Source: Mesorhizobium sp. STM 4661 (GTDB lineage Bacteria; Pseudomonadota; Alphaproteobacteria; Rhizobiales; Rhizobiaceae). Taken from it: 64,000 bases of DNA. The stretch covers positions 1 to 64,000 of the forward strand of contig NZ_CAAF010000070.1 of assembly GCF_000359125.1 (NCBI RefSeq). The letters run 5' to 3'. This document shows positions 16,350 to 25,223 of this stretch, one piece after another. Position 1 is the first letter of the stretch. Every line of letters begins with the position of its first letter. A model generated the notes under the pieces. The model worked only from the letters and a program-made list of their open reading frames with translations. It had not been told where the DNA came from and ran no database searches. The translations under genes were made by a program, and so were the position numbers.

Positions 16350-17150
16350 CTACCTCGACCTGATGACGACGTCGGTATTGGCCAACAGTTTGCGCACGGC
16401 ATTGCGCGCCGCATCCGGCCGCTGCAGGCGAATATTCTTCTCGATCGCCTCATGCAGCTTTTGCGCATGCTGCAAATCGTCCAGCTCCCGCGTCGTATAG
16501 GCGAACAGATGATCGAAAGCCGATTCGATCAGCACGCCGAGCGGCACCAGCAGATCGTTGCCCGACGCCCGCAAGATGGCCAGATGAAAGCGCGTGTCGG
16601 CACGGGTGCGCTCCTGCAGCGTCGCCGCCTCGCCCATCTCCCGGCAGGCCTGGCTGATTTCGGCCATCTGCTCGTCGCTGCGCCGCATGGCGGCGAAGGC
16701 GCTGGCCTCCGGTTCGATGATATGGCGGAATTCCTGCACGGTTTTCAGGAAAACCTCGCGGTCGGGCGATGTCGCGTACCAGGCGAGCACATCGCGGTCG
16801 AGCAGGTTCCAGCGTTCCCTGGGTTCGACCCAACTGCCGATCTTGGGGCGCGATGCCAACAGGCTTTTCGCCATCAGCATCTTGATGGCTTCCCGCACCG
16901 CCGAGCGGCTGACATCGAAGGTCTCGGACCATTTGGCTTCGTTGGGCAGGATGGTTCCCGGCGGATAGTCGCCGCGCACGATCCTCAAGCCGATCTCGTT
17001 GGCCAGCGAGGCATGCACGCTCGACCCGGGAATGCGGGCCACATCGGCCCGGCGGACGGCCGCCGGACGTTCGGCGGGAGCCGCACCGGCCAATTTTTTC
17101 CCTTGTTCGGCTTTCCGTCCCGCATCTGTCCCAGAAAGTCCGGATTTCAA
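16350..17150 (-). CDS. FadR/GntR-family regulator, copy 1
   Basis: Regulator of about 266 residues with an N-terminal winged helix (IGLRIVRGDYPPGTILPNEAKW and FDVSRSAVREAIKMLMAKSL) and a C-terminal FCD ligand domain containing the metal-binding pattern: EFRHIIEPEASAFAA, then DTRFHLAILRASGN and the final LHEAI. The start is uncertain: the longest frame begins with TTG at 17150. It is transcribed from the same strand as the epimerase gene upstream, and is almost identical to copy 2 at 23224-24006. The likely operator is the palindrome at 18145-18159. Confidence 0.88.
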   Translation of the reverse strand: MKSGLSGTDAGRKAEQGKKLAGAAPAERPAAVRRADVARIPGSSVHASLANEIGLRIVRGDYPPGTILPNEAKWSETFDVSRSAVREAIKMLMAKSLLASRPKIGSWVEPRERWNLLDRDVLAWYATSPDREVFLKTVQEFRHIIEPEASAFAAMRRSDEQMAEISQACREMGEAATLQERTRADTRFHLAILRASGNDLLVPLGVLIESAFDHLFAYTTRELDDLQHAQKLHEAIEKNIRLQRPDAARNAVRKLLANTDVVIRSR

Positions 17151-18231: not shown

Positions 18232-19164
18232 ATGACCACGACTGCCGCGAGCGAAAAGATCGGCTTCATCGGCCTTGGCCTGATGGGGCATGGAATCGCC
18301 AAGAACATCGTCGACAAGGGCTATGCGCTGACGTTTCTCGGCCGCAAGAACCGCAAACCCGCGGAAGATCTGCTTGGCCGCGGCGCCAAGGAAGCAGCCA
18401 CCTCGCGCGACGTGGCTGCGGCATCCGATATCGTCTTCATCTGCGTCACCGGCTCGCGCGAGGTGGAAACCATTGTCCGCGGCCCCGGCGGCCTCAAGGA
18501 GGGCTTGAAGAAGGGCTCGGTCGTCGTCGACTGCTCGACCTCCGATCCGGTATCAACGGTGGCCATCGCCGCCGAACTCAAGGCGCTCGGCGTCGACTAT
18601 GTCGATGCCCCGCTCAGCCGCACGCCGAAGGAGGCCTGGGAAGGCACGCTCGACGCCATGGTCGGCGCCTCCGACGCGGTCTTTGCCCGCCTCAGGCCGG
18701 TGCTCGACACCTGGGCCGGACGCATCGTCCATATCGGCGGCACCGGCGACGGCCACCGCATGAAGCTGCTCAACAATTTCATTTCGCTCGGCTATGCGGC
18801 GATCTATTCCGAGGCGCTGGCACTGGCCGAGAAGGTCGGCATCTCGCCGCCGCGTTTCGACAGCGTCATCCGCAACGGCCGCATGGATTGCGGCTTCTAC
18901 CAGACCTTCATGCGCTGGACGCTGGAGGGCGACCGCGACGCCCATAAATTCACTATTGCCAATGCCTTCAAGGACCTCACCTATCTCGAATCGATGGCGG
19001 GTGCGGCCGGCATAGCCAACCCGCTTGGCAATGCCACCAAGAACGCCTTCGCCGGCGCCTTTGCCGCCGGGCCCGCCGATCAATATGTGCCGATGCTGGC
19101 AACGCATGTCGCCAAGGTCAACGGCGTCGACCTGATGCCGACCACAGCGCCGCGCGTCCCATAG
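18232..19164 (+). CDS. 3-hydroxyisobutyrate dehydrogenase-family (beta-hydroxyacid) dehydrogenase
   Basis: NAD(P)-dependent beta-hydroxyacid dehydrogenase of 310 residues. The dinucleotide signature IGFIGLGLMGHGIAKNIVDKG is at residues 8-28, the substrate-binding STSDPVS segment about residues 102-108, and the catalytic lysine in GHRMKLLNNFI about residue 180. The family includes 3-hydroxyisobutyrate, tartronate semialdehyde and L-threonate dehydrogenases. Context with a sugar epimerase and FadR regulator favours a sugar-acid such as a four-carbon aldonate over valine breakdown. The start at 18232 is chosen because the upstream in-frame extension crosses the operator. Confidence 0.86.
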   Translation: MTTTAASEKIGFIGLGLMGHGIAKNIVDKGYALTFLGRKNRKPAEDLLGRGAKEAATSRDVAAASDIVFICVTGSREVETIVRGPGGLKEGLKKGSVVVDCSTSDPVSTVAIAAELKALGVDYVDAPLSRTPKEAWEGTLDAMVGASDAVFARLRPVLDTWAGRIVHIGGTGDGHRMKLLNNFISLGYAAIYSEALALAEKVGISPPRFDSVIRNGRMDCGFYQTFMRWTLEGDRDAHKFTIANAFKDLTYLESMAGAAGIANPLGNATKNAFAGAFAAGPADQYVPMLATHVAKVNGVDLMPTTAPRVP

Positions 19165-19629
19165 GGCGCGCAATGAAGGCTGCAGAGCCGACATGGAATT
19201 TCCATGAGCCCAAAAGCCTGATTCATTGCAATAGAACCATGCGCTATGGTCCTGTTGATCATCATTCCGAACCGACCTTTAGGACCATCATCTAGCGGCA
19301 AACCCAATCAGCGCAAATGGCCAAGATGGGTAGAATGTTGCCATTCGCCTCGTCGATGGGAACGAGCGAATGGCGCCAACAGCAGACATTGCGCTGTTCA
19401 TCGGAAATCGGACGTTCCTGTTGACGAAGATGCCTGAAAGCCAGGTCACCCGATCATCGCCGTTGCAACCGCCGACAAACTCACCGAAACCTGTAACAAA
19501 CCGACTGACACGCGTGCGATCGAGCTGTCGCAACCGCATTGGCCGAACCACATGTATCAAGCGAGACAAGGTTCGCTTACAAGCCTACATCGACCGAGTG
19601 CGGATCGGCACGGAATTGGAACACTGTTG
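19165..19629. other. Non-coding boundary region before the recQ-dprA cassette
   Basis: No credible gene is seen in these 465 nt. It holds a palindrome CATGGAATTTCCATG (19192-19206) and a strong hairpin: GCCATTCGCCTCGT (19340-19353) pairs with ACGAGCGAATGGC (19362-19374) with one bulged base and an 8-nt loop, lacking a clear U-tract. The sequence is lower in GC than the flanking dehydrogenase gene and marks the left edge of a probably acquired segment. No attachment-site repeat or tRNA end was recognised. Confidence 0.5.
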
Positions 19630-21729
19630 ATGACAGATCGACCCGCAGCACTTGTCCTTTTAAGAAGAGCACTGAATGATGCAGGCGCCTCGTTCCGCGA
19701 CGGCCAGTGGGAGGCGATTGATGCCCTCGTGAATCGTCAAGAGCGGTTGGTGGTGGTGCAGCGCACCGGCTGGGGCAAGAGTTCCGTCTATTTCATCGCC
19801 ACTCGTATTCTCCGAGACCGCGGGCGCGGCCCCACGCTGATCGTATCGCCGCTACTGGCTCTCATGCGGAACCAGATCGAGGCCGCTGAGAGGCTTGGTA
19901 TCAGAGCATTGACCATAAACTCCACGAACAGAACTGAATGGCCGGCACTCCAACGAGTTGTTCGGTCAGACGAGGCTGACGCTCTCTTGATCTCACCGGA
20001 GCGCCTGTCGAACGACGAGTTCATAGGGAACGTGCTGCTACCTATCGCGGAGACCATTGGTCTGCTGGTGGTCGATGAGGCACACTGCATTTCAGATTGG
20101 GGACACGACTTTCGACCTGACTACCGGCGGCTGGTCAATGTTCTGCAACGGATGCCAGACAATGTGCCGATCCTGGGCACAACAGCGACCGCCAACAATC
20201 GCGTCGTTGCAGATGTCCAAGCCCAACTAGGGAATATCGCGATCCAGCGCGGATCGCTCATCAGGCCAACGCTGGCGCTACAGACAATGCGGCTGCCAAC
20301 GCAGGCTGCCCGCCTCGCCTGGCTCGCAGAACACATCGGGGCACTCCCCGGCACGGGGATCATCTACACACTTACAAAGCGTGATGCGAACCAGGTCGCC
20401 GACTGGCTGAATCAGCATGGCATTGCCGCCAAAGCCTACTACAGTGGTGTGTTCGGTGACGGTTTCGACGATTCCGATGCCTACCGGCAGCACCTTGAAG
20501 ACCTTCTCCTGAACAACGAAATAAAAGCGATAGTCGCGACCACAGCCCTAGGAATGGGATACGACAAACCCGACCTTGGTTTCGTCGTCCACTATCAAGC
20601 ACCAGGATCGATCGTTGCTTACTATCAGCAGGTCGGACGCGCTGGGCGGGGAATCGACCATGCAGTCGGCATATTGATGTCGGGGGACGAGGACGACGAC
20701 ATCCACGAATATTTCCGAAGCAGCGCATTTCCTCGTGACCGATGGGTGCAGTCGATTTTGGACGCGCTTGAAGACAGTGACGGGCTTACAGCGACAGAGC
20801 TTGAAGAGACGGTGAACCTGCGTCGACGCCAGATAGAGCAGGTTCTCAAGTTCCTGTCCGTCGATAGTCCGGCACCAGTCATCAAGGACGGTTCACTGTG
20901 GCAGCGAACGCCGGTTCCATTTCGGATGGACCACGATCGGATCCAGCGGCTGACAGAACAGCGCGAAGTCGAATGGGGCGAGATTCAAGGCTACATCGAC
21001 GAGCCGGGATGCCTCATGGAGTTCCTGGCCCGCGCGTTAGACGATGCAGACCCACGGGCATGTGGAAGATGCGCGCGGTGCTTGGGGCAGCCGATTGTAG
21101 CTACCACTTTCAGCCGAGACACGGCCATTGAAGGTGGGCGTTTTCTACGCCACTCGGAAATCGCCCTTGAATGCAAAAAACAGGTCGCGAAAGACGCCTT
21201 CGTCGAATACGGATTCAGAGGAAATCTCCCGGACGCGCTAAGGTCGGAAACAGGACGCATCCTCTCTCGCTGGGGCGACGCCGGCTGGGGACAGATTGTA
21301 GCAGAAGATAAGCACAGCGGACACTTCCGTGATGAGCTAGCTGATGCGGTCGCCGAGATGATCCGCGACCGCTGGCGCCCCGATCCGGCACCGACTTGGA
21401 TCACATGCATACCTTCAAGAAACCATCCCACCCTGGTTTCCGATTTTTCCGAGCGCCTCGCGATTGAACTTGAGATTCCGTTTTTTCCCGTCGTGATCAA
21501 AATCAAGGACAATGAACCCCAGAAGGGGCAACAGAACAGGTTTCACCAATGTCGAAACCTTGATGGGGTTTTTAGGATCGACGGTGAGGTGCGGGACGGG
21601 CCAGTGCTCCTCGTTGACGACGTCGTTGACTCTGCCTGGACGCTGACGGTTGCCGCCGCTCTGCTGAGACAAGCAGGCAGCGGTCCAGTCTGGCCACTTG
21701 CGTTGACAACATCGAGCATGGGGGCCTGA
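19630..21729 (+). CDS. RecQ-like DEAH helicase fused to a C-terminal phosphoribosyltransferase-like domain
   Basis: The 699-residue protein begins with a superfamily 2 helicase: Walker A RTGWGKSS (45-52), DEAH box at 149-152 followed by CISDWGHDFRPDY, TTATAN (about 184-189), and motif VI QQVGRAGRG. A RecQ zinc site follows, a C-x16-C-x2-C-x2-C pattern ending CGRCARC. The last third is not RecQ: it ends with VLLVDDVVDSAWT (about 659-671), the PRPP-binding loop of type I phosphoribosyltransferases as in ComF. It probably unwinds DNA; the second activity is unknown. A dprA-like gene starts one base after the stop. Codon use is less GC-biased than in neighbours, which suggests transfer. Start ATG 19630 was chosen over a longer extension without a helicase-like sequence. 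Confidence 0.85.
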   Translation: MTDRPAALVLLRRALNDAGASFRDGQWEAIDALVNRQERLVVVQRTGWGKSSVYFIATRILRDRGRGPTLIVSPLLALMRNQIEAAERLGIRALTINSTNRTEWPALQRVVRSDEADALLISPERLSNDEFIGNVLLPIAETIGLLVVDEAHCISDWGHDFRPDYRRLVNVLQRMPDNVPILGTTATANNRVVADVQAQLGNIAIQRGSLIRPTLALQTMRLPTQAARLAWLAEHIGALPGTGIIYTLTKRDANQVADWLNQHGIAAKAYYSGVFGDGFDDSDAYRQHLEDLLLNNEIKAIVATTALGMGYDKPDLGFVVHYQAPGSIVAYYQQVGRAGRGIDHAVGILMSGDEDDDIHEYFRSSAFPRDRWVQSILDALEDSDGLTATELEETVNLRRRQIEQVLKFLSVDSPAPVIKDGSLWQRTPVPFRMDHDRIQRLTEQREVEWGEIQGYIDEPGCLMEFLARALDDADPRACGRCARCLGQPIVATTFSRDTAIEGGRFLRHSEIALECKKQVAKDAFVEYGFRGNLPDALRSETGRILSRWGDAGWGQIVAEDKHSGHFRDELADAVAEMIRDRWRPDPAPTWITCIPSRNHPTLVSDFSERLAIELEIPFFPVVIKIKDNEPQKGQQNRFHQCRNLDGVFRIDGEVRDGPVLLVDDVVDSAWTLTVAAALLRQAGSGPVWPLALTTSSMGA

Positions 21730-21730
21730 G

Positions 21731-23053
21731 ATGCAGTTGACGCCTCAGTCCCAAGCGATGATGCTTCTAACCGTATCGTTCGGCAAATCCGATTCCGCCG
21801 ATATGAAGCCCCTTTCGAACAAAGAGTGGGCTCGGTTTGCCATCTGGCTCAAGGAACACGGGCTGGACCCCGCGGCCTTGCTCAAGGGCGACTTGGATTC
21901 TTTACTTGCGGGCTGGACGGATCGCGCGGTTACGATCGTACGCGTCCGATCACTTATTGGCCGGGGAGCGGCCCTTGGTCTCGCCCTTGAGAAGTGGCAA
22001 CGTGCCGGGCTCTGGGTGCTGACCAGATCCGACCCAGGATATCCCGAACTGTTGAAGCGACGACTCCGTGCCGAATCTCCCGCGGTATTCTTTGGCTGCG
22101 GAAACAAGGCCCTATTGAACGCTGGCGGTATCGCCGTTGTGGGATCGCGCGATGCAGATGAAGAAGACCTTGCATTCACGGCCAATCTTGGCAAAGAAGC
22201 CGCCTCACAAGGCTTTTCTATCGTCTCTGGCGGGGCGCGAGGCGTCGATCAAAGCGCGATGCTCGGAGCATTGGACGGCGATGGGACTGCTATTGGCGTC
22301 CTCGCAGACAGTCTTCTTAAGTTAGCGACGTCATCGCGATATCGCAAGCGTATCATGTCCGGCGACTTGGTGCTGATCACCCCCTTCAATCCGGAGGCGG
22401 GGTTCAATGTCGGCAACGCCATGTCGCGGAACCGCTACATCTACTGCCTAGCCGACGCAGCGATCGTCATTAGCAGCACGGCCGACAGTGGCGGCACATG
22501 GAGCGGCGCGCTTGAAGACCTGAAAAACACATGGGTCCCGCTCTGGATCAAGCCAAGCACTGCCGCGGGATCGGGAAATCCAGAGCTCGTGAGACGTGGG
22601 GCGCACTGGCTGCCCGACGACTTACAGTCGCTGTCAATTCTACTTACCAACTCCGAGTCTGATCCCGGCCAGTCTAAACAGGAAGGCCTGCCGCTAGCGC
22701 CTCGCAGTCGAAATGAAGAGGAAGACCTGAAGGATGGTGCCGGTTCACCGAAGTCAGGCGAATTCTCCGAGGAGACCGAACCCAGCTTTGCCGCACTACC
22801 TGCGAAGCACCCGCAAGCGGTCAACGCAGATTTCTATTCGCTTTTCCTGGCGCACATGGCCGATCTCACATCAGTTCGCTCGTTGACGGTAGAGGATATC
22901 TCCGTGCGGCTTGAATTGGAAAAGTCCCAGGTAAATGCCTGGATGAAACGAGCCGTGAGCGAAGGAACGATCAAGAAGTTAACCAAGCCAGTCAGGTACC
23001 AGATGACCTCGGGAGAGCGACAGCAAGCCTCATTGTTCGGTGATGAACTGTAA
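21731..23053 (+). CDS. DprA/Smf-like protein with extended C-terminus
   Basis: The 440-residue protein has a DprA-type Rossmann fold in the middle: DPGYPELLKRRL and PAVFFGCGN (about 96-118), IAVVGSRDADEEDL (about 133-146), SGGARGVDQSA (about 167-177), then SRNRYIYCLADAAIVI. The usual FP-x-RNR-x-IAGLS is changed to AMSRNRYIYCLAD. A low-complexity charged linker (about 310-365) leads to a C-terminal winged-helix-like domain, ending in ASLFGDEL. Competence DprA loads RecA on single strands; here the tight pairing with the RecQ/PRTase gene suggests a dedicated two-protein nucleic-acid system. The gene order argues against the housekeeping dprA locus. Confidence 0.83.
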   Translation: MQLTPQSQAMMLLTVSFGKSDSADMKPLSNKEWARFAIWLKEHGLDPAALLKGDLDSLLAGWTDRAVTIVRVRSLIGRGAALGLALEKWQRAGLWVLTRSDPGYPELLKRRLRAESPAVFFGCGNKALLNAGGIAVVGSRDADEEDLAFTANLGKEAASQGFSIVSGGARGVDQSAMLGALDGDGTAIGVLADSLLKLATSSRYRKRIMSGDLVLITPFNPEAGFNVGNAMSRNRYIYCLADAAIVISSTADSGGTWSGALEDLKNTWVPLWIKPSTAAGSGNPELVRRGAHWLPDDLQSLSILLTNSESDPGQSKQEGLPLAPRSRNEEEDLKDGAGSPKSGEFSEETEPSFAALPAKHPQAVNADFYSLFLAHMADLTSVRSLTVEDISVRLELEKSQVNAWMKRAVSEGTIKKLTKPVRYQMTSGERQQASLFGDEL

Positions 23054-23223
23054 GGCCGCTGTATAGGAATAGGCAACAAGGGCTGGTTGGGCCGAATGTC
23101 CGACTTCTGGAAGGCAAATAGGTCCGGAAGGTCTGGTCAGGGTCATGGGCGGGAATTCGGCCGAGCGCGAACGAGTTTCCGCTTAGAGCCGAACTTTGCC
23201 GTTCAGAGCGATTGGGTTTGACC

Positions 23224-24006
23224 TTACCGCCGTGACCGACCGATGACATCATCGGTGTTGGCGAGCAATCTGTGCACCGCATTGCGCGCCGCGCCTGGTC
23301 GCCGCAGGCGGATGTTCTTCTCGATCGCTTCGTGCAAGGACTGTGCCCGTCGTTGGTCGCTGTGCTCGCGGGTGACGAAGACGAACAGGTGGTCGAGCGC
23401 CGATTCGATCAGCACGCCGAGCGGCACCAGCAGGTCGTTGCCGGAGGCGCGCAGGATGGCGAGGTGGAAGCGCGTATCGGCGCGCGTGCGCTCCTGCAGC
23501 GTCGCCGCCTCGCCCATCTCCCGGCAGGCCTGGCTGATCTCGGCCATCTGCTCATCGCTGCGCCGCATGGCGGCGAAGGCACTGGCTTCCGGTTCGATGA
23601 TATGACGGAATTCCTGCACGGTGCGCAGGAACGCCTCGCGGTCGGGTGCGGTCGCGTACCAGGCGAGCACGTCGCGATCGAGCAGGTTCCAGCGCTCCTT
23701 CGGCTCGACCCAACTGCCGATCTTGGGGCGCGATGCCAACAGGCTCTTGGCCATCAGCATCTTGATGGCTTCCCGCACCGCCGAGCGGCTGACGTTGAAG
23801 GTTTCCGACCATTTGGCTTCGTTGGGCAGGATGGCCCCGGGGGGATAGTCGCCGCGCACGATCCGAAGACCGATCTCGCTTGCCAGCGAGGCATGCACGC
23901 TCGAGCCGGGAAAGTGTGCCGCGTCGGCGCGCCGAAAGGCAGCCGGGGGTCTGACCGGCGCCTCGGCCTTGGCGGGTCGTTTCCTTGATTTTCCGTCGTC
24001 CGGCAT
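23224..24006 (-). CDS. FadR/GntR-family regulator, copy 2
   Basis: The 260-residue regulator has the same winged helix (NVSRSAVREAIKMLMAKSL) and FCD domain (EFRHIIEPEASAFAA, DTRFHLAILRASGN) as copy 1. By eye about nine residues in ten agree over some 225 positions, with differences concentrated at the N-terminal tail and near LFVFVTREHSDQRRAQ. Start ATG 24006 gives an N-terminal tail similar in length to copy 1. It lies downstream of the CUT2 binding-protein gene on the same strand and probably controls the divergent importer through the sites at 25501-25580. Confidence 0.9.
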   Translation of the reverse strand: MPDDGKSRKRPAKAEAPVRPPAAFRRADAAHFPGSSVHASLASEIGLRIVRGDYPPGAILPNEAKWSETFNVSRSAVREAIKMLMAKSLLASRPKIGSWVEPKERWNLLDRDVLAWYATAPDREAFLRTVQEFRHIIEPEASAFAAMRRSDEQMAEISQACREMGEAATLQERTRADTRFHLAILRASGNDLLVPLGVLIESALDHLFVFVTREHSDQRRAQSLHEAIEKNIRLRRPGAARNAVHRLLANTDDVIGRSRR

Positions 24007-24040
24007 CCACGTTCCAATGCGTCGGCTGTCTGTCGCGGGC

Positions 24041-24055
24041 AATTGTCGGGAATTC
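24041..24055. promoter_or_regulatory. Possible degenerate operator before FadR copy 2
   Basis: AATTGTCGGGAATTC contains one good half-site (ATTGTC) and a poor second half. It lies 35 nt upstream of the copy 2 start codon, so weak autoregulation is possible. The rest of 24007-24182 shows no gene. Confidence 0.25.
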
Positions 24056-24182
24056 AGATTCCCTGCCGAATTAGCCCTTCGCCGAAAATGCGAACTATGG
24101 GCGCGTCGAAACCGGGGCATTCCGCCCCGACCGCGCTGCTTGTCCCTTGCATGAACCGGGTACATTCCATGACCCGGGGTGG

Positions 24183-24223
24183 CGGGGCGCCCCCGCTCTA
24201 CGACCAAAGCGTCCGGCGCCCCG
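24183..24223 (-). other. Hairpin downstream of the CUT2 binding-protein gene
   Basis: CGGGGCGCC (24183-24191) and GGCGCCCCG (24215-24223) form a perfect 9-bp stem with a 23-nt loop, 11 nt beyond the binding-protein stop. No U-tract follows on the minus strand. It may protect the 3' end of the message or slow transcription into FadR copy 2. Confidence 0.45.
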
Positions 24224-24233
24224 AAATTGCGGC

Positions 24234-25223
24234 CTACTTCTGGATGCAGGTGTCGACCGTGTCCTTGGTGCATTCGTCGAGGCCGGTGAACACCGGATCG
24301 GCAACGGCCTTGCCTTCGATCAGGTCGATCATCACCGAAGGCGCCTTGTAGCCCATCTCGAACGGCCGCTGGCCGACGAGTGCGGTGACAAGGCCTTCAC
24401 GGGCGATCGCCACCTCGTCGCCGATCGTATCGGCGGCGCCGATGACGAATTCGTTCTTGGCGATCTTGTCGGCCATCGGCTTGAACAGGTCGCGATAGGG
24501 CTGCGGCGCGCCAAACAGCGGCCAGCCGCCCATGATACCGAAGGCGTCGAGATCGGGATTGGCGGCGAGGATATCGGTCATCGCCTGCACGCCCTTGGCG
24601 CCGTCGTCATTGGTGAACACCGGGCAGCCGGCGACTTCCGTCCAGCCGCCTTCGCCGGCGAGCGCTGCAAGACCTTCCTTGCCCGAAAGCGCATCACGCA
24701 TGCCCTGCGCGCGGCGCAGGATGTTGTCGGCCGCGGGATTGCCCTCGATGGTGCAGATCTTGCCGCCATCCGGCTTGCCCTTCTTGATGTACTCGCCGAT
24801 CTTCTTGCCCATCAGATAGTTGTCGGTGCCAAGATAGGTCTTGCGAAGTGCTGCATCTTCCTTGGCAAGGTCGGCGTCGATGGTCATGATCGGGATCGAC
24901 GGATTGGCGCTTTTGATGGTCTGCGCGATCAGCGGCGCGTTGGACGGCGAAATGGCCATCGCCACGGTATCGGACTTGCTCAGCATGTCGCCGACGATCT
25001 GCGCCTCGCCGGCCTCGTCGGAGGTCGAAGCCGGACCGGTGTAGAAGCACTCATACTCCGAACTGGCATTTTCCTTGTTCCATTTCTGGCAACCCTGGTT
25101 GATGGCCTCGAAGAACGGATTGTCGAGACCCTTCACGACGATGACGAGCTGTTTCTTGGCCAAAGCCGGCCCGGCGCCGAGCGCCATGACGGCGGCAGCG
25201 GCGAGCAATAGTGATTTCCTCAT
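24234..25223 (-). CDS. CUT2-family sugar-binding periplasmic protein
   Basis: Periplasmic sugar receptor of 329 residues with signal peptide about 1-22 (MRKSLLLAAAAVMALG... ending ALA). Family features are KQLVIVVKGLDNPFFEAINQG, TVAMAISPSNAPLIAQTI, IPIMTIDADLA and DAFGIMGGWPLFG. Conserved cysteines (about 45, 58, 154, 205 and 318, 327) could form disulfides. Start ATG 25223 has AGGGAGG upstream. It is transcribed away from its ATPase and permease genes (25699-27517), and the shared gap carries three operator-like sites. Confidence 0.9.
   Translation of the reverse strand: MRKSLLLAAAAVMALGAGPALAKKQLVIVVKGLDNPFFEAINQGCQKWNKENASSEYECFYTGPASTSDEAGEAQIVGDMLSKSDTVAMAISPSNAPLIAQTIKSANPSIPIMTIDADLAKEDAALRKTYLGTDNYLMGKKIGEYIKKGKPDGGKICTIEGNPAADNILRRAQGMRDALSGKEGLAALAGEGGWTEVAGCPVFTNDDGAKGVQAMTDILAANPDLDAFGIMGGWPLFGAPQPYRDLFKPMADKIAKNEFVIGAADTIGDEVAIAREGLVTALVGQRPFEMGYKAPSVMIDLIEGKAVADPVFTGLDECTKDTVDTCIQK

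Follow-up and report, generated by a model that had tools for sequence, protein, structure and literature searches.

A PsyrTA (RqlHI) toxin-antitoxin pair inserted in a sugar locus of Mesorhizobium sp. STM 4661, and a candidate clamp-binding motif in its DprA-fold antitoxin

The closest described relatives of the gene pair treated here are PsyrTA, a toxin-antitoxin (TA) system from Sberro et al. 2013 (as cited in PMC9122126), and RqlH/RqlI of extraintestinal Escherichia coli (PMC4670107); published work is cited throughout from excerpts of the papers concerned. In E. coli, RqlH without RqlI inhibits growth, induces the SOS response and causes filamentation. Deletion of its phosphoribosyltransferase (PRTase) domain abolishes growth inhibition and SOS induction, and a D663A substitution leaves only a modest effect on viable counts (PMC4670107). 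RqlI relieves the toxicity, and co-immunoprecipitation of RqlH with RqlI depends on the PRTase domain (PMC4670107). In ShosTA, the nearest analogue, PRTase and pyrophosphatase activity disturbs purine metabolism and the trigger is T7 Gp0.7 (review PMC12593503); this system has also been grouped with those activated by the phage single-strand-binding protein Gp32 (PMC10732053). The pair described here, psyrT and psyrA, lies on a cassette inserted in a sugar locus within a 64,000-nucleotide stretch of Mesorhizobium sp. STM 4661 (contig NZ_CAAF010000070.1; hereafter the window).

That the pair is PsyrTA (RqlHI), a new member only of a system already named, is well supported. The PADLOC comparison that the original prediction had suggested gave matches over nearly the full length of both proteins, PsyrT matching its model at residues 5-697 (E 9.2e-298) and PsyrA at residues 1-425 (E 2.6e-152). 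The original prediction, made from the sequence alone, had known of no named system with this make-up; the pair is in fact represented in PADLOC and has been studied experimentally (PMC4670107). The features are as follows.

19145..23223, no strand assigned: inserted cassette, about 4.08 kb, absent in 6/6 sister loci examined
19630..21729, plus strand: psyrT (rqlH), predicted toxin of 699 residues, a RecQ-family helicase fused to a C-terminal PRTase domain
19699..20214, plus strand: DEAD helicase domain (Pfam, residues 24-195) with Walker A TGWGKS and DEAH box
20350..20649, plus strand: helicase C-terminal domain (Helicase_C; Pfam, residues 241-340)
21445..21678, plus strand: PRTase domain (Pribosyltran; Pfam, residues 606-683, 31.6 bits against a cut-off of 26.3)
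21604..21642, plus strand: loop VLLVDDVVDSAWT predicted to bind phosphoribosyl pyrophosphate (PRPP), residues 659-671, 28 residues from the protein end
21731..23053, plus strand: psyrA (rqlI), predicted DprA-like antitoxin of 440 residues
21995..22612, plus strand: DprA domain (DNA_processg_A; Pfam, residues 89-294)
22673..22825, plus strand: predicted disordered linker, residues 315-365, per-residue model confidence (pLDDT) <50
22832..23005, plus strand: winged helix-turn-helix, about residues 368-425, from the model
23024..23038, plus strand: QASLF, candidate beta-clamp-binding motif, residues 432-436, in the low-confidence C-terminal tail

PsyrT had been described as a 699-residue RecQ helicase ending in a PRPP loop, and this is borne out by its DEAD, Helicase_C and Pribosyltran domains and by the loop at residues 659-671. 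The Walker A and DEAH motifs and the PRPP loop (including the D663 position) are all intact, and D663, D664, S668, W670 and T671 are invariant among 39 aligned PsyrTs. The zinc motif, which had been called complete, stands as regards its residues, since C461, C478, C481 and C484 are nearly invariant in 39 aligned relatives, but the RecQ zinc domain reaches only 12.6 bits against a Pfam cut-off of 25. In the AlphaFold2 model (mean pLDDT 89.2, predicted TM-score 0.85) PsyrT is confident nearly throughout, including the C-terminal part, with a pLDDT of 72 over the last ten residues. The best 50 matches listed in a PDB fold search with the whole model were RecQ-family helicases; for the PRTase domain the nearest PDB sequences were PRPP synthetases, a weak match (E 0.017). 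The predicted PRTase fold of the C-terminus is supported by the Pfam match, the PRPP loop and the confident model taken together. The original prediction had named a C-terminus without a PRTase fold as grounds for abandoning its reading, and PRTase profiles matched this region above their cut-offs. An upstream ATG at 19552 would give an alternative protein of 725 residues. The start at 19630 is preferred because position 6 of the PADLOC PsyrT profile aligns at residue 5, and because those annotated toxin proteins beside an intact or broken PsyrA that were translated have 692-710 residues.

A single base separates the psyrT stop codon, which ends at 21729, from the ATG of psyrA at 21731. The description of the downstream gene as DprA-like with an extra winged helix agrees with the Pfam match and the model. 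The PsyrA model has a pLDDT of 87.3 and is ordered in the DprA part to about residue 310; residues 431-440 average 50, and the C-terminal tail is probably flexible. Ranked by E-value, its PDB fold matches are headed by the solved antitoxin ShosA (8zva), with Streptococcus pneumoniae DprA (3uqz) nearly equal. Identity with canonical DprA was considered and rejected, as the NCBIfam dprA equivalog scores 94.2 bits against a cut-off of 191.15. Elsewhere the genome carries a canonical DprA of its own and a further RecQ-type gene. In three PsyrAs of other loci (L033, L074, L101) the C-terminal winged-helix unit seems, by eye, to be repeated two or three times.

The pair is horizontally acquired and its occurrence is sporadic, as indicated by the absence of the cassette from sister loci, the unlike GC content at third codon positions (GC3) and the scattered distribution. 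For the empty-site comparison, the search returned 12 loci, 11 of them from other genomes, and six of these 11 were taken. All six keep the flanks and lack the cassette, with 53 to 127 bp between the flanks in five of them and 777 bp of other sequence in the sixth (L191). The closest sister genome has 124 bp of other sequence in place of the cassette. Of 144 same-genus genomes, the strain's own included, 130 have the neighbouring ABC-transport protein. GC3 is 0.63 in psyrT and 0.64 in psyrA against 0.77-0.86 in six neighbouring genes, in line with the less GC-biased codon use noted earlier. The view of the pair as a mobile-looking cassette in a sugar locus can thus be sharpened to a foreign insertion. 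The empty sites and the unlike codon use are also the opposite of the conserved locus with host-like codons that was to have counted against it, and the empty sites led us to reject a native gene pair of the sugar locus.

Distribution was measured with a profile (A2) of the C-terminal part of PsyrT at E-values up to 1e-40, in partly overlapping samples that count the strain's own genome where sampled. Among same-genus genomes the profile matched 2 of 146, namely the window's own copy and a distant one. It matched 4 of 337 genomes from the class as a whole, 8 of 369 from the class to which genome G448 belongs and 13 of 398 Pseudomonadota. Thirteen plasmid records matched PsyrT at 1e-60 and four matched PsyrA at 1e-30. 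In two of these four the pair is nested in a defence operon, namely a type I restriction operon on a plasmid from E. coli and a BREX operon on one from Acinetobacter. No phage-borne relative was found in the 'phages' collection (tblastn with the C-terminal part, 1e-15), and two were found in IMG/VR. A PsyrA-like open reading frame (ORF) is present in 84 of the 89 PsyrT loci examined, two being cut by a contig end and two planctomycete ones weak; in two of the five loci without one, the sequence stops just after PsyrT.

From the studied relatives, a mechanism can be proposed in which PsyrT is a RecQ-type helicase whose C-terminal PRTase domain would be toxic through its PRPP site, the helicase part serving as regulator or sensor. 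A mycobacterial RqlH is reportedly, by the title of a paper, a 3'-5' translocase with unwinding activity. PsyrA, with its DprA fold, would bind the PRTase domain and hold the toxin off until phage replication or DNA damage upsets the balance between the two. The freed PRTase might then act on the nucleotide pool or on DNA, so that replication fails and the cell stops before the phage spreads. That the window copy behaves like its studied relatives, and that phage is the natural trigger, is inferred by analogy.

We give a probability of roughly 0.85 to the reading that this is a horizontally acquired PsyrTA (RqlHI) module with a PRTase toxin, a DprA-fold antitoxin and arrest triggered by phage or damage; docking on the sliding clamp, discussed below, is excluded from that figure. 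Several observations weigh against it. The RqlH PRTase domain expressed alone was not toxic, and deletion of rqlHI had no detectable fitness cost in the work excerpted (PMC4670107). Among the systems of E. coli NILS69 that were expressed, PsyrTA gave no detectable phage protection in the portion of the study cited, and its expression slowed growth (PMC12409345). PsyrTs without an adjoining PsyrA exist (L027, L028 and L029, and, within 1.5 kb, L120 and L121), and S. pneumoniae DprA fits the PsyrA model with a higher TM-score than ShosA does (0.53 against 0.49). Given the NILS69 result, phage protection by PsyrTA itself is to be regarded as weakly supported. As for the earlier proposal of a self-contained system directed at foreign DNA, its defence-type element is retained, and recognition of foreign DNA gives way to the better supported toxin-antitoxin function.

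Other explanations of the pair were weighed against the same data. Under the model of Russell and Mulvey the two proteins would form a DNA-repair or genome-maintenance pair that jointly processes nucleotides in DNA and is toxic only when one partner is missing. The SOS, mutation and filamentation phenotypes that follow loss of RqlI agree with this, as does the finding that helicase mutants of RqlH also disturb cells (PMC4670107). A maintenance gene, however, would hardly be so sporadic (2/146 same-genus and 13/398 Pseudomonadota genomes, own included) or be nested in restriction and BREX operons, nor would its deletion be expected to cost nothing detectable (PMC4670107), and we consider a repair role unlikely. 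We are equally sceptical of a selfish addiction module, kept because its loss kills and without any role in defence. The two-gene layout, the plasmid-borne copies and the NILS69 result without phage protection (PMC12409345) would all suit such a module. The embedding of PsyrTA copies in defence operons speaks against it, as does a pair of DprA and PRTase proteins from P2-like phages that its authors likened to shosTA and rqlHI and that protects against T7 and lambda (PMC9122126). Far less credible than either is a DNA-uptake device: the domains do resemble ComFA/ComFC and DprA (PMC4670107), but the genome has its own canonical DprA, PsyrA scores far under the DprA equivalog cut-off, and Russell and Mulvey, in the excerpted text, saw no transformation in their isolates (PMC4670107). 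The TA module thus remains the preferred reading, and the window offers a clean case of a defence-type cassette inserted into a sugar locus.

The genes around the cassette encode sugar or ABC-transport proteins, regulators and dehydrogenases, and one of the ten scanned is without a Pfam match. Other listed ORFs of at least 100 residues within the cassette sit on the strand opposite psyrT and psyrA. Only short, chance-like terminal repeats of the cassette were found, none of them convincing. The cassette is flanked by two GntR/FCD regulator genes (16350-17150 and 23224-24273, both minus strand, in direct orientation) that are 85% identical over 714 bp, and recombination between them could delete the insert. 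That the insertion itself duplicated the GntR gene was considered and rejected, as all six empty sites carry both copies.

Some further loci deserve mention. The solo PsyrTs of L027-L029 come from a haloarchaeon, in which the PRPP loop seems altered, an Arthrobacter, in which it seems intact, and a Tsukamurella, in which it seems degenerate. On pSymB of Sinorhizobium meliloti (CP090106.1; L025 4938-8444) PsyrT is open, the downstream PsyrA frame is broken and unannotated, and insertion sequence transposase genes lie upstream of PsyrT. The E. coli RqlHI pair is found between gntU and yhgN on the chromosome in both records opened (L167, L168). In a distant blastn search, a plasmid psyrA matched 1646 of 5426 complete E. 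coli genomes, in 53 of them over at least 80% of the query.

The window PsyrA ends in QQASLFGDEL, and its last 15 residues, QASLF among them, extend past the end of the PADLOC match at residue 425. The canonical beta-clamp motif is QL[S/D]LF; in its revised form the consensus reads Q-phi-x-[L/M]-[F/L] or Q-phi-x-[L/M]-x-[F/L], where phi is L, I, V or A (PMC13254535). QASLF fits the revised consensus and lies in a low-confidence segment of the model. A survey of relatives suggests that many PsyrA antitoxins carry a short tail resembling a sliding-clamp docking peptide. The discovery loci comprised 82 from genome and viral collections (the best 80 of 577 relatives in the genome search) and seven plasmid loci. 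Seven of these 89 had no complete PsyrA and were dropped (L064 and L081, cut; L109, L111 and L027-L029, with none). The 82 retained, the window and the chromosomal E. coli RqlI (L167) gave 84 PsyrAs, some of them truncated or frameshifted, and 79 of these have at least 30 residues after the DprA domain.

In that region a preset pattern, Q.[SDTGN][LMI][FL], occurs in 41 of the 79 (mean 4.0 and maximum 11 in 1000 shuffles) and a looser one, Q..[LMI][FL], in 54 (mean 13.2, maximum 26, 1000 shuffles). Within the last 15 residues the looser pattern is found in 25 of 84 PsyrAs (mean 1.6, maximum 7, 2000 shuffles), in none of 31 canonical DprAs and in 2 of 285 neighbouring ORFs of at least 250 residues. 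Discovery and held-out sets combined without L167 give 30/99 against those 2/285 (Fisher p 1.7e-17); rows of the same clade are not independent, and kinship is ignored by the shuffles and the Fisher tests alike. After clustering at 45% identity, the loose tail count is 7/14 for the discovery set and 2/4 for the held-out set. Further DprAs among L202-L227 were judged by eye, partly repeat the genomes of the 31 controls and were left uncounted.

Tail forms such as QESLF, QSSLF, QPSMF, QLSLF and QLSLL are found across several groups, among them Alphaproteobacteria, Thermodesulfobacteriota, Cyanobacteriota and Bacteroidota. In a largely gammaproteobacterial clade the protein stops soon after the winged helix, and the linker holds forms of the QADLF, QVDLF and QTDLF type; E. 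coli RqlI (L167, left out of the tree) has QPELF in the linker. Tail and linker forms alternate over the PsyrA tree. They were told apart by a rough winged-helix pattern, which failed to assign 25 of the 84 discovery rows and 6 of the 16 held-out ones; cyanobacterial PsyrAs that end in QLSLL are among the unassigned.

A held-out set was drawn from later genome searches (24 loci, 16 with a complete PsyrA). The preset pattern had been written before these searches; the final choice of the looser one was made with the held-out tails in view, a near-identical version having existed earlier. Over the whole region the preset pattern was found in 3 of 16 (shuffle mean 0.56, reached in 13/1000) and the looser in 8 of 16 (shuffle mean 1.86, reached in 0/1000). 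Some of the unmatched rows end in six-residue forms, e.g. QGALPL and QGTLGF. The best identities of the held-out rows to discovery rows range from 41 to 93%, and the set supports the motif, at the sequence level, weakly: within the sampled clades and little beyond them.

ShosA was surveyed in eight proteins with a ShosT-like neighbour. That of phage P2_4C9, which agrees with the solved ShosA at every one of 170 compared residues, ends in QLSLLGDE, a Paracoccus ShosA ends in QLSLF, and three from Rhizobiaceae end in QTSFL or QASFL. Two end in looser six-residue forms, and a Bermanella ShosA is without the motif. The canonical pattern fits 2 of 8 and an extended one, Q.[SD][LMIF][FL], 5 of 8, while each of the two fits 1 of 285 neighbouring ORFs. 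The extended form was drawn up with these tails in view, and the three Rhizobiaceae sequences belong to a single lineage. A fourth Rhizobiaceae ShosA-like protein (L196) has no adjoining ShosT.

These tails raise the tentative proposal that DprA-fold antitoxins (PsyrA/RqlI and ShosA) are clamp ligands, which would dock the TA complex on DnaN at or behind replication forks, sense phage interference and release the PRTase, true DprA being without the peptide. In some lineages the clamp-binding peptide would be C-terminal; in others it would sit within the disordered linker. In the window, PsyrA might park the complex on the sliding clamp via QASLF, and the toxin would then be placed where replication is disturbed, a step held with lower confidence than those above. 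E. coli RqlI (L167) has 431 residues, and a start at Met 32 gives the 400 reported for strain F11, with QPELF at 320-324. An RqlI 1-320 truncation effectively counters RqlH (PMC4670107). If F11 RqlI agrees with L167, this truncation would lose most of QPELF, so neutralisation would not depend on the motif; the role left to it would be localisation or sensing, if it has one at all.

The alternative is that QxxLF binds PsyrT or another partner, not the clamp, or recurs through shared clade ancestry. Clamp binding by QxxLF is, after all, deduced from the pattern of residues. Canonical and literature patterns were found in the last 15 residues of none of the 16 held-out rows. When held-out rows at least 70% identical to discovery rows are removed, the preset pattern falls to 2/12 (39/1000) and the looser to 4/12 (20/1000). 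Without rows at least 60% identical, which leaves those least related to the discovery set, the counts are 0/7 and 1/7 (shuffle mean 0.66 for the latter), with no excess. Of 59 discovery rows with a recognised winged helix, 14, including L041 of the window's own clade, have the motif in neither tail nor linker. Over the last 165 residues, winged helix included, the loose pattern also occurs in 2 of 19 DprA controls (shuffle mean 3.6), so that only the tail comparison separates PsyrA from DprA sharply. Against the alternative, RqlI 1-320 (PMC4670107), which by the numbering above loses most of QPELF, still neutralises, and this argues against a needed contact with the toxin. In addition, QASLF in its low-confidence tail fits the published consensus, the motif alternates between tail and linker over the tree, and QLSLL and QLSLF are among the tails of ShosA. 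Because the held-out check was weak, docking on the clamp was lowered from nearly an even chance to distinctly less than even, and the alternative was raised from somewhat below even to close to it.

In the open-licence literature searched we found no report of a clamp motif in PsyrA or ShosA antitoxins; the primary PsyrTA, mycobacterial RqlH and ShosTA papers lay outside that scope and might mention one. The toxin SocB binds the clamp through a motif of this kind (PMC9690074), and a pneumococcal toxin acts on the clamp (PMC12795458). Clamps are thus already known as toxin targets, and docking of an antitoxin on the clamp would be new. If true, it would bear on how DprA-type antitoxins notice the takeover of replication by phage.

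Among named systems, DprA/Smf shares the DprA domain with PsyrA and differs in that its 31 controls are without the loose tail motif and PsyrA scores under the dprA equivalog cut-off. DpdF of the Dpd 7-deazapurine system is likewise a RecQ-like helicase, and its PADLOC models give strong partial matches to the window PsyrT. The PsyrT model scores far higher, however, and membership of the Dpd system was rejected, as the DpdF equivalog reaches 145.1 bits against a cut-off of 550.

ShosTA (P2-like phage; PDB 8zva, 9vzo) also combines a DprA-fold antitoxin with a PRTase-type toxin, and the P2_4C9 ShosA carries its own motif-like tail. It differs in a toxin without an annotated helicase (a phosphoribosyltransferase or HAD-like product in the loci opened), in the order antitoxin then toxin, and in a shorter antitoxin of 349 residues; the window pair, with a helicase in its toxin and the toxin gene first, was rejected as a member. 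An apparent ShosTA/PsyrTA hybrid of three genes was seen on a Klebsiella plasmid (NZ_AP022114.1; L229 5803-11890), where a type I restriction R subunit lies directly upstream, and on E. coli plasmid pLAO18 (L228 4227-10371, minus strand), with domain calls from the Klebsiella copy only. Its first gene encodes a ShosA-like DprA protein (PADLOC ShosA, E 1.9e-65). In the second product, of 1558 residues, HAD is accompanied by a PRTase-like stretch that stays under the Pfam cut-off (its loop, FLIVDDVLTSGAT, is at 303), by a segment resembling DUF559 nucleases and by a RecQ helicase. A DpdF model gives its best PADLOC match (2.1e-112); PsyrT matches in part (5e-61) and ShosT weakly (2.3e-7). The third has 162 residues and a hydrophobic C-terminus. 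On three Rhizobiaceae plasmids a hypothetical gene and a second DprA-like gene directly follow ShosTA on the opposite strand (L171 5133-5510, L173 5121-5498, L195 5119-5510).

RqlH/RqlI of extraintestinal E. coli (PMC4670107) has the same RecQ-PRTase fusion and an adjoining DprA-like partner with a helix-turn-helix, and differs in that RqlI of L167 is without the tail motif and has its QPELF in the linker instead. PsyrTA as modelled in PADLOC (PDLC03928/PDLC03927) is the closest of all, differing from the window pair in sequence divergence only, with the window PsyrA extending 15 residues beyond the match.

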